Of a stretch of 64,000 nucleotides of DNA, positions 22,866-64,000 are shown in pieces. The stretch is from Leptospirales bacterium (GTDB lineage: Bacteria > Spirochaetota > Leptospiria > Leptospirales > Leptonemataceae): the NCBI GenBank assembly GCA_019694655.1, contig JAIBBN010000003.1, forward strand, positions 186,001 to 250,000. The letters are read 5' to 3'. Position numbers and translations under genes: made by a program. Numbering within the stretch: the first letter of the stretch is position 1; every line of letters starts with the position of its first letter. Under the pieces are notes generated by a model. The model saw nothing but the letters and a program-made list of their open reading frames with translations. It ran no database searches and was not told where the DNA came from.

Positions 22866-25385
22866 TCAGCGCAGGGGAAAGCCGGCGGCGGCCAGCGCTG
22901 CTACACAACGCTCCAATAACATTTGGAGTTCCTCGCCGCTCAGCGTTCCATCCTGTTTCAATGCGCGCAACTCATAGCTGACCGACTTCTTTGCCGCCGG
23001 CAGCGGAGCGCCGCGGTAGATCGCCAGTAAGCGCATGCTGCGCAATTCAGGCAAGGCCAGCTGACGGAGTACCTGTAAAGGAACCTCGCTGCCGGTCTTC
23101 TCATCCAGCAGCAGCGATAGTTCGAACGCGGAATCTGGAAAAATAGATGGCGGGCTGTAGGCGCGCTTCTTGCGTTCCAGCAGGTGCGCGGTCAGGAAGG
23201 CGTCAAAGTGCAAATCGGCGATCAGGCACCGCCGACGCAGATCAAAGCGATCTTGAAATACGGGATGCAGGATGCCGGCGTAGCCCAGCAATTCGCCGCT
23301 GCTGGCATGCAGGCTGATGGCGCAGCCGGGATGAAGGTAGGGCGCTGCATCCTGCGGCCTCTCGACAATCGCGCATTGCAGCGCGACTCCGCATTCTGCA
23401 GACAGTCGATCCAGCAGCAGTCGCATTTCATTCCACTGCACGAAATCATTCTGTTGATCGAGGGGAAGATCTGAATCGTTACGATCCGGCAGCGAATAAA
23501 GCAGGGTGATTCGCCGCTCTTCCTCCGCCAGCCGCGCCTTGTTTGCAGCTCGTCCGTCCTTCAAGAAGACGCGCCCAAATTCGAAGATCTTGAATTCCGG
23601 AAACCGATTCTCATTCTGGGCCGCCTGGCGCAGGATTCCTGGAATCTGCGAGACGCGCAATTCCGGTCGATCGCCAAAGACCGGATTCTGCAACTGCAAC
23701 CCGCGTCGACCGACGATCAGGTTATCTTCTGTGGCGGAAAAACTGTAGTTGTATACCTCGCTGTAGCCGCCGGCCGCCGCCAGCAACAAACGCAGTTTGC
23801 GCGCCAGGCTGCGATCACGATTGGGCTTCAAGGCCTGCACCGGCGCTTGCGGCGCCCGCGGCGCTATGTTGTCATAGCCAAAGACGCGACCGAGTTCCTC
23901 AACGATGTCCTCGGCGATGGTAATGTCATACTGCGATCGAAAGGCAGGCGCCAGCAACTGTAACTCGGGGTCTTTGCCGGCGAGCGCTTTGACTTCGAAG
24001 TGCAGACGCCGCAAGGTATCAACTGCCTGCTTTGCGCTGATCGCAAAGCCCAGTCGCGCCTGTAGAAAACTGAGTCGAAGCCGAATCCTGTTGCGTCGTT
24101 CCTTTTGCGGTCCGGCGCCGCTGAGGGCGCCGGGTTGCAAGTCCGGACAGCTATGGCGCAAGAGCTCGACAATGCGCCCCAGCGCCGGGGCCGCCTTGGA
24201 CGGATCCTGACCCTTCTCAAAACGCTGGGCAGAATCAGTGCGCAGTGCAAGCGCCGAAATTGCAGCGCGAATCCGCTCTCGAGGAAAACAGGCCGATTCC
24301 AGAAAGAGGCGCGTGGTCTGCGGCGCAATGCCGGAGTGCAATCCGCCAATGATGCCGCCGATGGCCACTGCCGTTTTTGCGCTGGCCTTGCCATCGAAGA
24401 TGATGATGGCTTCCGGCGGAAGCGCACGCTCCACGCCGTCCAGGGCAGTGAAGTTTTTCAGGTCGCGGGCTCTGGAGGCGCTGGCGACCAGCACCGAATC
24501 GTTCCTTAACAGCGAAGCGTCAAAGGCGTGGTTAGGCTGCCCAAGCTCAAACATCGCGTAGTTTGAGGCGTCGACAACATTGTTGATGGGCTTCTGACCG
24601 ACGGCCAGCAAGCGGGCCTGCATCCAGAACGGCGAAGGCTTCACGCTTACGCCGTCGACGTACATGCCGAAGTAGGCGTGCGCCGCCCCCTCTTCAATTT
24701 CGATGCGTTTGACGCCGCTCTTGCTGCTGGCGGTCGGCCGCTTTGGCTTTTGCGCCGCCAGCGGATCGAAGCGCAGCGGCTTGTGAAAGAGCGCGGCGAT
24801 TTCACGAGCAAATCCAAAATGACACCAGAGATCGGGTCGATGCGTAATCGACTTATTATCGATATCCAGGACAGTATCTTCCAGGCAAAGTACTGCAGCC
24901 AGATCCTTGCCAGGCGTCGGCGCCTTGAGTTCTTGTTGCTTGCAGCATAACTCAAGATCCAGCAAACCGTCGGTTTCGCCAAACAAACGATCCAGGCCAA
25001 GTTCCTGCGCCGAGCATAGCATGCCCCTGGACTCGACGCCGCGAATACGCGAGGTCTTGATTGCAATTGCGACGCCCTCTTTGCCCGGCAAAGTTGCGCC
25101 CGCCGGGGCCAGCGCGGCCAGCATACCGGCGCGAACGTTTGCCGCGCCGCATACAATCTGCAGGCGCTCCTTGCCGGCGGATACCTGACAGATCGAGAGC
25201 CGATCGGCCTCCGGATGTCGCTCAACCGACTCGACCCTGACTGCCACAACGGACTTGAGATGAGCGAAGATCGATTCCACTGAGTCGACTTCGCAAACCG
25301 CAAGCGTCAGACGAGCAGCAGTTTTTTCGGGACCTACGTCGCTCAGATCGACGTAGTCGTTCAGCCAGTTCCATGAGAGTTTCAT
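22866..25385 (-). CDS. pheT: Phenylalanyl-tRNA synthetase beta subunit
   Basis: 839 residues. The N-terminal tRNA-binding (EMAP-like) module is present (residues ~40-155, with VVAVRVESVERHPEADRLSIC and GVESRGMLCSAQELGL). The B3/B4 editing region, B5 domain, central class II-like core and C-terminal anticodon-binding ferredoxin fold follow in normal order. With PheS it forms the (alpha-beta)2 enzyme that charges tRNA-Phe and edits Tyr. The start MKLSWNWLNDYVDL matches family N-termini. The frame stays open about 130 codons further upstream, but only through tandem repeats, and should not be used as a longer start. No Shine-Dalgarno is seen: a perfect hairpin ends eight bases before the ATG. 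Confidence 0.96.
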   Translation of the reverse strand: MKLSWNWLNDYVDLSDVGPEKTAARLTLAVCEVDSVESIFAHLKSVVAVRVESVERHPEADRLSICQVSAGKERLQIVCGAANVRAGMLAALAPAGATLPGKEGVAIAIKTSRIRGVESRGMLCSAQELGLDRLFGETDGLLDLELCCKQQELKAPTPGKDLAAVLCLEDTVLDIDNKSITHRPDLWCHFGFAREIAALFHKPLRFDPLAAQKPKRPTASSKSGVKRIEIEEGAAHAYFGMYVDGVSVKPSPFWMQARLLAVGQKPINNVVDASNYAMFELGQPNHAFDASLLRNDSVLVASASRARDLKNFTALDGVERALPPEAIIIFDGKASAKTAVAIGGIIGGLHSGIAPQTTRLFLESACFPRERIRAAISALALRTDSAQRFEKGQDPSKAAPALGRIVELLRHSCPDLQPGALSGAGPQKERRNRIRLRLSFLQARLGFAISAKQAVDTLRRLHFEVKALAGKDPELQLLAPAFRSQYDITIAEDIVEELGRVFGYDNIAPRAPQAPVQALKPNRDRSLARKLRLLLAAAGGYSEVYNYSFSATEDNLIVGRRGLQLQNPVFGDRPELRVSQIPGILRQAAQNENRFPEFKIFEFGRVFLKDGRAANKARLAEEERRITLLYSLPDRNDSDLPLDQQNDFVQWNEMRLLLDRLSAECGVALQCAIVERPQDAAPYLHPGCAISLHASSGELLGYAGILHPVFQDRFDLRRRCLIADLHFDAFLTAHLLERKKRAYSPPSIFPDSAFELSLLLDEKTGSEVPLQVLRQLALPELRSMRLLAIYRGAPLPAAKKSVSYELRALKQDGTLSGEELQMLLERCVAALAAAGFPLR

Positions 25386-25393
25386 ATTATAGT

Positions 25394-25430
25394 GTGCAGC
25401 GGCCTCTGCATCGTGCAGAGGCCGCTGCAC
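25394..25430. repeat. Perfect 17-bp inverted repeat just upstream of pheT
   Basis: Arms 25394-25410 and 25414-25430 are exact inverse complements (GTGCAGCGGCCTCTGCA) with a three-base loop. In the pheS-pheT transcript the hairpin would end eight bases before the pheT start codon, where a ribosome site is expected. The only sequence between is ACTATAAT. Confidence 0.95.
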
Positions 25431-25437
25431 GAATTCA

Positions 25438-26163
25438 GGCTTCCGTAGATTGCAGACCGTCGCAACACCTCCTGTGTTGCGCGGAACCGAGAATGATCGC
25501 TGCGCAGGCCGCGGCCGGTGGGCCGCTTCGCTGCCAGCAGCGCGGCGCGCTGCGCCTGGCCTGCTGCGCGCGTCGGCCTCTCTGTCGTGCAGCGTCCGCT
25601 GCACGAATTCAGGCTTCCGTAAATTGCAGACCGTCGCAACACCTCCTGTGTTGCGCGGAACCGAGAATGATCGCTGCGCAAGCCGCGGCCTGTGGGCCGC
25701 TTCGCTGCCAGCAGCGTGGCGCGTTGCGCCTGGCCTGCTGCGCGCGTCGGCCTCTCTGTCGTGCAGCGTCCGCTGCACGATTCAAGGCTTCCGTAGATTG
25801 CAGACCGTCGCAACACCTCCTGTGTTGCGCGGGACTGTGAAAGATCGCTCCGCAAGCCGCGGCCTGTGGGCCGCTTCGCTGCCAGCACCGCGGCGCGTTG
25901 CGCCTGGCCTGCTGCGCGCGTCGGCCTCTCTGTCGTGCAGCGTCCGCTGCAGGATGCAAGGCTTCCGTAGATTGCAGACCGTCGCAACACCTCCTGTGTT
26001 GCGCGGAACCGAGAATGATCGCTGCGCAGGCCGCGGCCTGTGGGCCGCTTCGCTGCCAGCAGCGCGGCGCGTTGCGCCTGGCCTGCTGCGCGCGTCGGCC
26101 TCTCTGTCGTGCAGCGTCCGCTGCACGATGCAAGGCTTCCGTAGATTGCAGACCGTCGCAACA
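25438..26163. repeat. 174-bp tandem repeat array between pheS and pheT
   Basis: Four complete 174-bp units begin at 25438, 25612, 25786 and 25960. A 30-bp fifth fragment (26134-26163) ends on the base adjoining the pheS stop codon. Units are nearly identical, differing at scattered single bases. Each holds several inverted repeats: CGCAACAC-CTCCT-GTGTTGCG (first copy 25461-25481), a GCGGCC/GGCCGC stem, a bulged CAGCAG/CTGCTG stem enclosing GGCGC/GCGCC, and, in most, GTGCAGCG-TC-CGCTGCAC at the unit end. 174 is divisible by three and the units are GC-rich, so several frames stay open on both strands without being genes. Together with the hairpin at 25394 this accounts for the whole 778-bp gap (25386-26163). 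Confidence 0.97.
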
Positions 26164-27186
26164 TCAAAACTGTTCCAGGAAGCGCAGATTGCCAGAGAGG
26201 AAATGGCGGATATCCTCAATGCCGTAACGCATCATCACCAGGCGGTCCAGGCCCAGACCAAAGGCAAATCCCGACCATTTCGCGGGATCAATGCCGCCCG
26301 AGCGCAGCACATTGGGGTGCACCAGGCCACAGGGCAAGAGCTCGATCCAGCCGCTCTGCTTGCAAGTGCGGCAGCCTTTGCCGCCGCAGATCAGACACTG
26401 GATATCAAGTTCAAAGGCCGGCTCAACAAAGGGAAAGTAGCCCGGTCGCAGTCGTACCGTGACATCGCGCTCAAAGACCTGCGACAGAAAGGTCTTCATG
26501 ATAAAGATCAAATTGGCGGCGCTAACCTCGCGATCGACCAGCATGCCCTCCACCTGGTGAAAGGTGTTTTCGTGGGAAGCATCGATCTCTTCGTAACGAT
26601 ACACGCGGCCGGGGGCAATCATGCGGAAGGGGGGCTGCATCACCTGCATGGCGCGGACCTGAATCGGGGATGTATGCGTGCGCAGCAAGTTGCCGTCGCT
26701 GGTCCAGATCGTATCCTGCATATCGCGCGCTGGATGGTCCGCAGAAAAGTTTAGTTTTCCAAAGTTGTTTTCGTCTGTCTCGACCTCCGGGCCATCGACG
26801 ATCTCAAAGCCCATCGAGCTGAAAATATCCTCGACTTCCATCTGCATGCGCGTGATCGGATGGAGCCGTCCAATGGGAGCGGACAGCGGGCGCAGCGCAT
26901 CGTAGCGCTCCGCCGCCAGGCGAGAGCGCAATTCCGCCGCCTTCAGCGATTCGCGTCGAAGATGGAGCGTTTCCTCGACCAGCTGGCGGGCGCGATGCGC
27001 GGCCTGGCCCGCAGCGGGCCGTTCTTCAGCCGGCAGATCGCGCAGCGACTTCTGCAATTCGCTGAGTTCGCCCTTCTTGCCAAGCAAGCGATGCTGAAGC
27101 TCCTCCAGCGCCGCCAGGCTGGAGGCCTGCTCCAAAGCCCGTTGCGCTTCCTGGGCAAGACTTTCCAGTTGGGCCGCCAGAGACAT
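26164..27186 (-). CDS. pheS: Phenylalanyl-tRNA synthetase alpha subunit
   Basis: 340 residues, the usual PheS length. An N-terminal coiled coil ([18 protein letters not shown]) binds the tRNA. The class II catalytic core has motif 2 ([24 protein letters not shown]), the Phe-binding [11 protein letters not shown], and motif 3 [19 protein letters not shown]-x2-C-x4-C-x2-C zinc-type knuckle ([12 protein letters not shown]) sits in the core, as in many bacterial PheS. An in-frame ATG at 27225 would add 13 residues; 27186 was chosen because [14 protein letters not shown] matches family N-termini, though no ribosome site stands out at either. Its partner pheT begins 778 bases later, an exceptional gap for this operon. 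Confidence 0.95.
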
Positions 27187-27289
27187 CCCGGTCAAAGCGC
27201 CGTCTGGCAACAACCTGTCAACCATCCGCTTCGGAATCGCTTGTCAGCCCTCTGCCTCTGTGAAAAGTGTCCCTTTCGAGCAGGATACC

Positions 27290-62565: not shown

Positions 62566-64000
62566 ATGGCGGACGATAAACAAAAGAATCCCGGCAAGAT
62601 CAAGGATCAGTTGGGCAGCGCTGGCGGCAGCCAGAAGAAGAAGCTGGTCATCAAGAAGAAAACCGGCGAGCAAGCGCACGATATTTCTGACACCTTCCGT
62701 CGTGAAGATGGCGGGCGTCAGCAAGCGCCCCGTCCCGAAAACGCTCCGCAATCCGGCGCGCGCGCGCCCGGCGCCGGCGGCGATCGCCCGGCGCCAGCGC
62801 CTCCGCGACCGATGCAGCGTCCCGGCGGCGCACCCGCCGAACGCCGACCGGACGGTCCCGCTCGATCTGGAGCGCCGCGTCCTTATTCTGAAAATCGAGG
62901 CGGTCCGCGCCCTTATTCTGACAATCGTGGCGGTCCGCGCCCTTATTCTGACAATCGCGGCGGTCCGCGTCCCGGCGGCGGTCCTGGTCAGGGCGGACCA
63001 CGCGGGCCCGGCGGTCCGCGTCCCGGCGGCGGTCCCGGTCAGGGCGGACCACGCGGGCCCGGCGGACCTCGCCCTGGCGGTCCGCGGCTTGGCGGCGCTA
63101 CCCCCTTTGATGCTGCAGTGCAGAGTGCGCGTCGTCAGCCCGGCGGACCCGGCGGACCCGGCGGTCCGGGGGGATATGGCGGGCAGCGACGTCCAGGCGC
63201 TCCGGGCGCCACCCAGGGCCAGGCAGGCGCGGGCGCAGGCGGGCAGAGACCGCCCGGCGTTGGCCGTACTGACCATCGCCGCGACGACAAAGATCGCGAT
63301 CGTCAGCGCGAGAACGCCAAGTTTTTTCAGAAGCAAGAAAAGAAGAAGGCCTCTTCGGCCAGTTCAGTTCCGAAGCAAATCGAGATAATGGAGAGCATTC
63401 AGGTCGGCGACCTGGCGCGCAAGCTGAACCTCAAGCCCAGCGAGATCATCGGCAAGCTGATGAAGATGGGCGAGATGGTCACAATTACCAAGGCCATCGA
63501 TGCCGACACTGCGACTCTGGTTGCAGCCGAATATGGCTGCGAGGTGAAGGTTGTCTCGCTTTACGAAGAGACGGTCATCAAAGAAGAGCTTGATGCGGAA
63601 GATCGCCAGGAGACGCGTCCGCCGGTGGTAACCGTGATGGGACATGTGGATCACGGTAAAACGCGCCTGCTTGATACCATTCGCAACACCAATGTCATCG
63701 ACACGGAATCGGGTGCGATCACTCAGCACATTGGCGCCTACCAGGCGGTAACTCCCCAGGGCCGTATCACTTTTCTGGATACGCCGGGCCACGAGGCTTT
63801 TACTGCGATGCGCGCCAGGGGCGCAGCTGTCACCGATATCGTTGTCCTGGTTGTGGCCGCCGATGATGGCGTGAAACAGCAGACCATCGAAGCCATCAAC
63901 CATGCTCGCGAAGCAAAGGTTCCGATCATCGTCGCCGTAAACAAAATCGATTTGCCGGCGGCGGATGTGGAGCGCGTCAAGAAGGAGCTGTCGCAATACG
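62566..64000 (+). CDS. infB: Translation initiation factor IF-2, 3' end outside window
   Basis: At least 478 residues are visible; the frame is still open at the last base. Residues 1-~265 are a basic, disordered N-terminal region: Lys-rich start ([13 protein letters not shown]), then Gly/Pro/Arg-rich sequence with tandem repeats. The IF2N module follows (~275-330, [29 protein letters not shown]). The GTPase domain starts at ~350: G1 GHVDHGKT, G2 ITQHIGA, G3 DTPGHEAF, G4 NKID. IF-2 delivers initiator tRNA to the 30S subunit. The ATG at 62566 has only a weak ribosome site. It completes the conserved rimP-nusA-infB order. Confidence 0.97.
62881..62970 (+). repeat. 30-bp tandem repeat inside infB
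   Basis: Three near-identical 30-bp units (62881, 62911, 62941) encode [20 protein letters not shown] and [10 protein letters not shown]. In-frame copy-number change would lengthen the IF-2 N-terminus by ten residues per unit. Confidence 0.93.
62971..63072 (+). repeat. 51-bp tandem repeat inside infB
   Basis: Two units (62971-63021 and 63022-63072) are almost identical and encode a 17-residue Gly/Pro/Arg-rich repeat, [18 protein letters not shown] degenerate continuation follows. Confidence 0.9.

Follow-up and report, generated by a model that had tools for sequence, protein, structure and literature searches.

A tandem array of structured repeats lies between pheS and pheT in the window analyzed here (the whole 64,000-nt stretch of DNA, part of a 438-kb contig of an uncultured spirochaete), and an open reading frame runs through the array from one end to the other, overlapping the stop codon of pheS and the start codon of pheT. 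We favor, tentatively, the explanation that a structured element inserted at a coupled TGATG overlap and was amplified there, with ribosomes crossing the array and reinitiating at pheT. Overall support for this coupling explanation is moderate, and the statistical tests were few, modest, and in part post hoc. PheS and PheT are subunits of one essential enzyme and are required at 1:1.

Array architecture

Table 1. Features of the pheS-pheT region, in window coordinates
Feature	Coordinates	Strand	Description
pheS	26164..27225	-	353 aa; Pfam PF01409, 1.6e-88
Insert (whole pheS-pheT gap)	25386..26163	-	778 nt; four 174-nt units plus an 82-nt end piece
Unit 1	25990..26163	-	167-nt stem-closed module (ends TGTTGCG / CGCAACA), then CAGGAGG
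Unit 2	25816..25989	-	8 differences from unit 1; private changes more numerous than in other units
Unit 3	25642..25815	-	3 differences from unit 1; carries CCTTGAATCG
Unit 4	25468..25641	-	Shares CCTGAATTCG with the end piece
End piece	25386..25467	-	68 nt homologous to unit start, then 14 unique nt; adjoins pheT ATG
Bridging frame	25382..26164	-	260 codons plus TGA; starts in TGATG at pheS stop, ends in ATGA at pheT start
pheT	22866..25385	-	839 aa; Pfam PF03483, 4e-48; ATG at 25385-25383

The coordinates that an earlier note on this DNA had given for the gap between pheS and pheT were borne out (Table 1). That note had also described four 174-bp units with a 30-bp fragment beside the pheS stop; the units, the period, and the exact abutment stood, whereas the remainder proved to be longer and to lie at the pheT end. 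On the coding (minus) strand, the first full unit begins at 26163, the base adjoining the pheS stop. TRF returned a period of 174 with 4.4 copies, 94% matches, 0% indels, and a score of 1356, and all units are exactly 174 nt long, a multiple of three. Pairs of units differ at 3 to 15 positions (91.4-98.3% identity), which supports the recent amplification proposed before. Several of the private changes in unit 2 disrupt stems. The difference between CCTGAATTCG and CCTTGAATCG is explicable either as three substitutions or as a -1/+1 pair of indels, in which length and frame are kept. Units are closed by TGTTGCG/CGCAACA, pairing over 7 bp, or 10 bp if one bulge is allowed, while the outer ends of the insert are not inverted repeats.

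The copy number reported is that of a 33-contig assembly. Assemblers are prone to errors in tandem repeats, and a shorter array might have been collapsed or expanded. We consider this very improbable, as every unit bears its own substitutions and the array sits inside the 438-kb contig with unique flanks; moreover, the unit itself would stand at any copy number.

The hairpin sequence of the end piece (25386-25431) is a perfect 17-bp palindrome, while its counterpart in the units is imperfect. Template switching at a quasi-palindrome would be expected to give such perfect and imperfect versions, with the change going in either direction. Just one other array with a period of at least 40 was found on the contig, a 51-bp array at the end of the window. 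Short tandem repeats with periods of 9 to 51 are clustered at 62753-63164, and ORFs of 228 and 269 aa span this cluster on opposite strands.

Joints with the flanking genes

The pheS stop TGA (26166-26164) and the array-frame ATG have one A in common, forming TGATG, and the end of pheS reads ...GAACAGTTT TGATG TTGCG.... At the other end, the array-frame stop TGA (25384-25382) overlaps the pheT ATG to form ATGA at 25385-25382 (-4, NTGA spacing), where the sequence reads ...ACTATAAT ATG AAACTC. These stop-start overlaps at both joints, and the open array frame ending in ATGA, had been missed by the earlier note.

Relatives identified by searching with pheS were Leptospirales and Spirochaetia assemblies, with which the source genome groups. 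In G005, a member of the same family from another genus, pheS and pheT are joined directly and have no spacer (...GAACAATTC TGATG CAACTT...), so that stop and start share an A. This joint, the only TGATG joint of pheS and pheT among the family members, looks like a putative empty site for the insert. In the window the insert has an ATG at each end, as would be expected had it entered at a start codon, and we infer such an insertion, noting that the three-base match alone could be due to chance. The former suggestion that a selfish repeat had come down on a stop codon was close, but the landmark that matters is the TGATG overlap, the plain joint of G005, and no second copy was found in the genome.

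Spacers elsewhere in the family are mostly 7 to 35 nt long, with 78-85 nt in two members and 237-264 nt in one genus, lengths that include the end of pheS wherever the pheS match stopped early. The gap in G004 is ~1.2 kb, AT-rich, and carries a 308-aa DUF5655-family gene (L011:5104-6030), so the same joint received an unrelated insertion in another genus. Of eight genomes in family f2 (L058-L064), seven showed no pheT match closer than 1.5 kb to pheS, so the two genes may be apart there.

An open frame that bridges the array

In a set of 20,000 arrays, assembled from shuffled units that bore changes of the same kinds, 26% had the frame open, and the full architecture of TGATG, open frame, and ATGA occurred in 1.5%, as compared to a looser bridging ORF of some sort in 32%. 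The 16 changes between units comprised nine synonymous and seven replacement changes in the bridging frame, with no stops (p 0.022, base-matched placement), while in the other two frames four and five of the same changes were synonymous (p 0.69 and 0.51). Those frames, too, are largely open in the GC-rich units, and each of the two is interrupted by a stop in some unit.

An ordinary protein gene was rejected as an identity for the bridging frame. Its GC content by codon position was 0.62/0.68/0.70, versus 0.65/0.45/0.68 in neighboring genes, and its codon score was 0.002, versus 0.30-0.44, such that codon use is not gene-like. The Pfam search of the frame yielded no family above the cut-off, with weak scores below it, and the homolog search gave one weak match only, in G006, where it is interrupted by stops.

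These results bear on the main rival explanation, a neutral spacer, in which quasi-palindromic, GC-rich DNA either formed in the gap or came into it from elsewhere and grew by slippage, the frame and overlaps being products of chance and pheT being expressed sufficiently by other means. We regard this as a real possibility, albeit not a probable one. The frequency of loose bridging ORFs in shuffled arrays and the codon use of the frame are in keeping with it, as are the lack of any relative of the unit in the genomes searched and the variable length and content of spacers in the family, including the gene in G004, which indicate that the joint tolerates insertions. However, exact joints at both ends were rare among shuffled arrays, the synonymous excess is confined to the bridging frame, and a blocked pheT start must get translated somehow.

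The pheT start and a model for coupling

A 17-bp hairpin in the end piece, GTGCAGCGGCCTCTGCA-CGA-TGCAGAGGCCGCTGCAC, has a predicted fold of -37.5 kcal/mol and ends 8 nt before the pheT ATG. There is no Shine-Dalgarno sequence at the usual distance, the duplex amounting to only -1.3 kcal/mol. In the predicted structure, the region from -30 to -9 is 18% unpaired, level with the lowest value among 21 relatives (range 18-84%); in the two relatives with similarly paired starts, the Shine-Dalgarno duplexes were -5.1 and -5.7 kcal/mol. Because of the hairpin and the missing Shine-Dalgarno sequence, independent initiation at pheT would be poor, and this start, predicted to be closed, is the main mechanical reason to favor coupling. 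A promoter belonging to pheT itself was also considered and rejected: a TATAAT at 25391-25386 touches the ATG, has no -35 match, and would place the transcript start within pheT.

Under the coupling explanation, a structured sequence would have entered where pheS and pheT met in a TGATG overlap, so that an ATG stood at either end, and one 174-nt stretch of it would then have been duplicated to four copies. Ribosomes ending pheS would restart at once at the overlapping ATG and translate through the array, melting its hairpins, including the one before pheT, and would finally stop upon the pheT start codon, at ATGA, and reinitiate there. Such passage would be made possible by a frame that is open from the left-hand ATG, a period divisible by three, and the terminal ATGA. 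The explanation is weakened by the atypical codon use, by the frequency of loose bridging ORFs in shuffled arrays, by the openness of the units in other frames, and by the family, in which a TGATG joint occurs once and most members have spacers of 7 to 265 nt. More specifically, the frame of this single-locus repeat may be a translated bridge that carries ribosomes over 778 nt from pheS to pheT, with 1:1 supply of the subunits depending on reading through an array whose length can change by whole codons; this stronger version we consider doubtful.

If the coupling explanation is correct, insertion that preserves coupling at stop-start overlaps would not be peculiar to the mycobacterial MIRUs discussed below: the spirochaete would show that it can originate independently, starting from a one-off sequence, within an essential operon whose two products are required in equal amounts. 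The array would then offer a direct test of long-range reinitiation, and of a repeat ORF that serves to bring ribosomes to the next gene and not to make a protein.

Predicted RNA folding

The strong hairpins that had been noted within each unit on the transcribed strand were confirmed, with predicted fold energies of -75 to -88 kcal/mol per unit. Compared with dinucleotide shuffles, unit 1 gave z = -3.0 on the coding strand and z = -2.2 on the opposite strand. Substitutions were rarer in paired columns of the coding-strand fold, with 5 of 16 located there versus about 10 expected (p 0.006, base-matched), a result that moved to p 0.05 once one cluster of substitutions was collapsed; the opposite strand had no such avoidance (p 0.64). 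No pair out of 55 had changed on both sides, in an alignment of four near-identical rows that has little power to detect covariation, and the mean fold energy of the units was no better than under random base-matched mutations (P 0.32).

A structured RNA device, for instance a REP/BIME-like stabilizer of pheS mRNA, a set of cleavage sites for RNase III, or an attenuator reducing pheT output below that of pheS, could account for the stable coding-strand folds and for the strand-specific avoidance of paired columns. We nevertheless judge it unlikely, given the missing covariation, the sensitivity of the avoidance to a single cluster, unit energies that match those after random mutation, and the 1:1 requirement for PheS and PheT. 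These results do not establish the array as an RNA module tuning pheT, as had been proposed earlier, although substitutions do avoid paired columns. Neither a known RNA family nor a T-box was recovered by Rfam in the window, and no intrinsic terminator, nor a terminator-like T run, was present in the array. An integron attC site was rejected by inspection, as the junction hairpin misfits the conserved ends.

REP units are about 35 nt long and dispersed. The array is like REP/BIME sequences, by analogy only, in having palindromes clustered in an intergenic region of an operon, on the transcribed strand, and differs from them in its 174-nt unit, its single locus, and its uninterrupted bridging frame.

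Comparison with known intergenic elements

The closest functional parallel is with MIRUs, which are described as mobile repeats that insert at start codons, with their ORF coupled to the gene by -4 spacing (Supply et al. 1997, via PMC12548453 section 11). An ORF that overlaps the downstream gene by -4 (NTGA) is common to the array and MIRUs, and the array would also share with them insertion at a start codon between operon genes and a proposed role in which the downstream gene stays translated. In contrast, the array occupies a single locus, gave no match in relatives, and is built of 174-nt units, where MIRUs form a dispersed family; its upstream joint is TGATG (-1), and its host is not mycobacterial. 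By analogy, the array would act like a MIRU if the proposed insertion and coupling hold, yet it is no MIRU, being neither dispersed nor mycobacterial.

YPAL/RU-2 of Yersinia is a 168-bp palindromic element that is not A+T-rich, contains a contiguous ORF about one unit long, and is intergenic, expressed together with upstream genes, and dispersed in many copies (PMC2229807). The array has units of similar length and is likewise palindromic, not A+T-rich, ORF-bearing, and intergenic, but it is tandem at one site, whereas YPAL is dispersed, and no similarity search gave a hit. More broadly, the multiple dispersed copies of bacterial MITEs and palindromic elements (YPAL, RUP, ERIC) were not seen for the array. 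The literature search on pheS-pheT repeats and leptospiral intergenic arrays found no useful paper.

Distribution of the repeat unit

Neither the unit search nor the covariance search that the earlier note had outlined extended the repeat beyond this locus. In its own genome the unit matched just the pheS-pheT locus at E<=0.001, and a covariance model of the repeat returned the array units and two chance-level matches (E 0.6-0.9). All four genomic occurrences of the junction sequence CGCAACACAGGAGGTGTTGCG lie inside the array. A dispersed selfish family was ruled out on the basis of this single locus. No match to the unit was found in 60 relatives, 48 genomes of the class, or 393 of the phylum, nor among plasmids or phages, and the exact junction sequence was absent from the viral contigs searched.

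Kinship of the array with dispersed 366-nt repeats in the same genome (L075, L077, L094) was rejected, the match covering just 41 nt at 78% identity (E 0.03); matches to several copies are not independent evidence, since the copies are related to one another. The ~366-nt repeat is itself GC-rich and strongly folding, with copies that are 83-95% alike. Copies L127, L128, L129, and L130 are located at C19:46755-47120, C9:5111-5474, C19:49575-49940, and C1:617533-617898, respectively, and partial copies at C19:43116 and C25:21382, such that three full or partial copies fall within 7 kb on C19.
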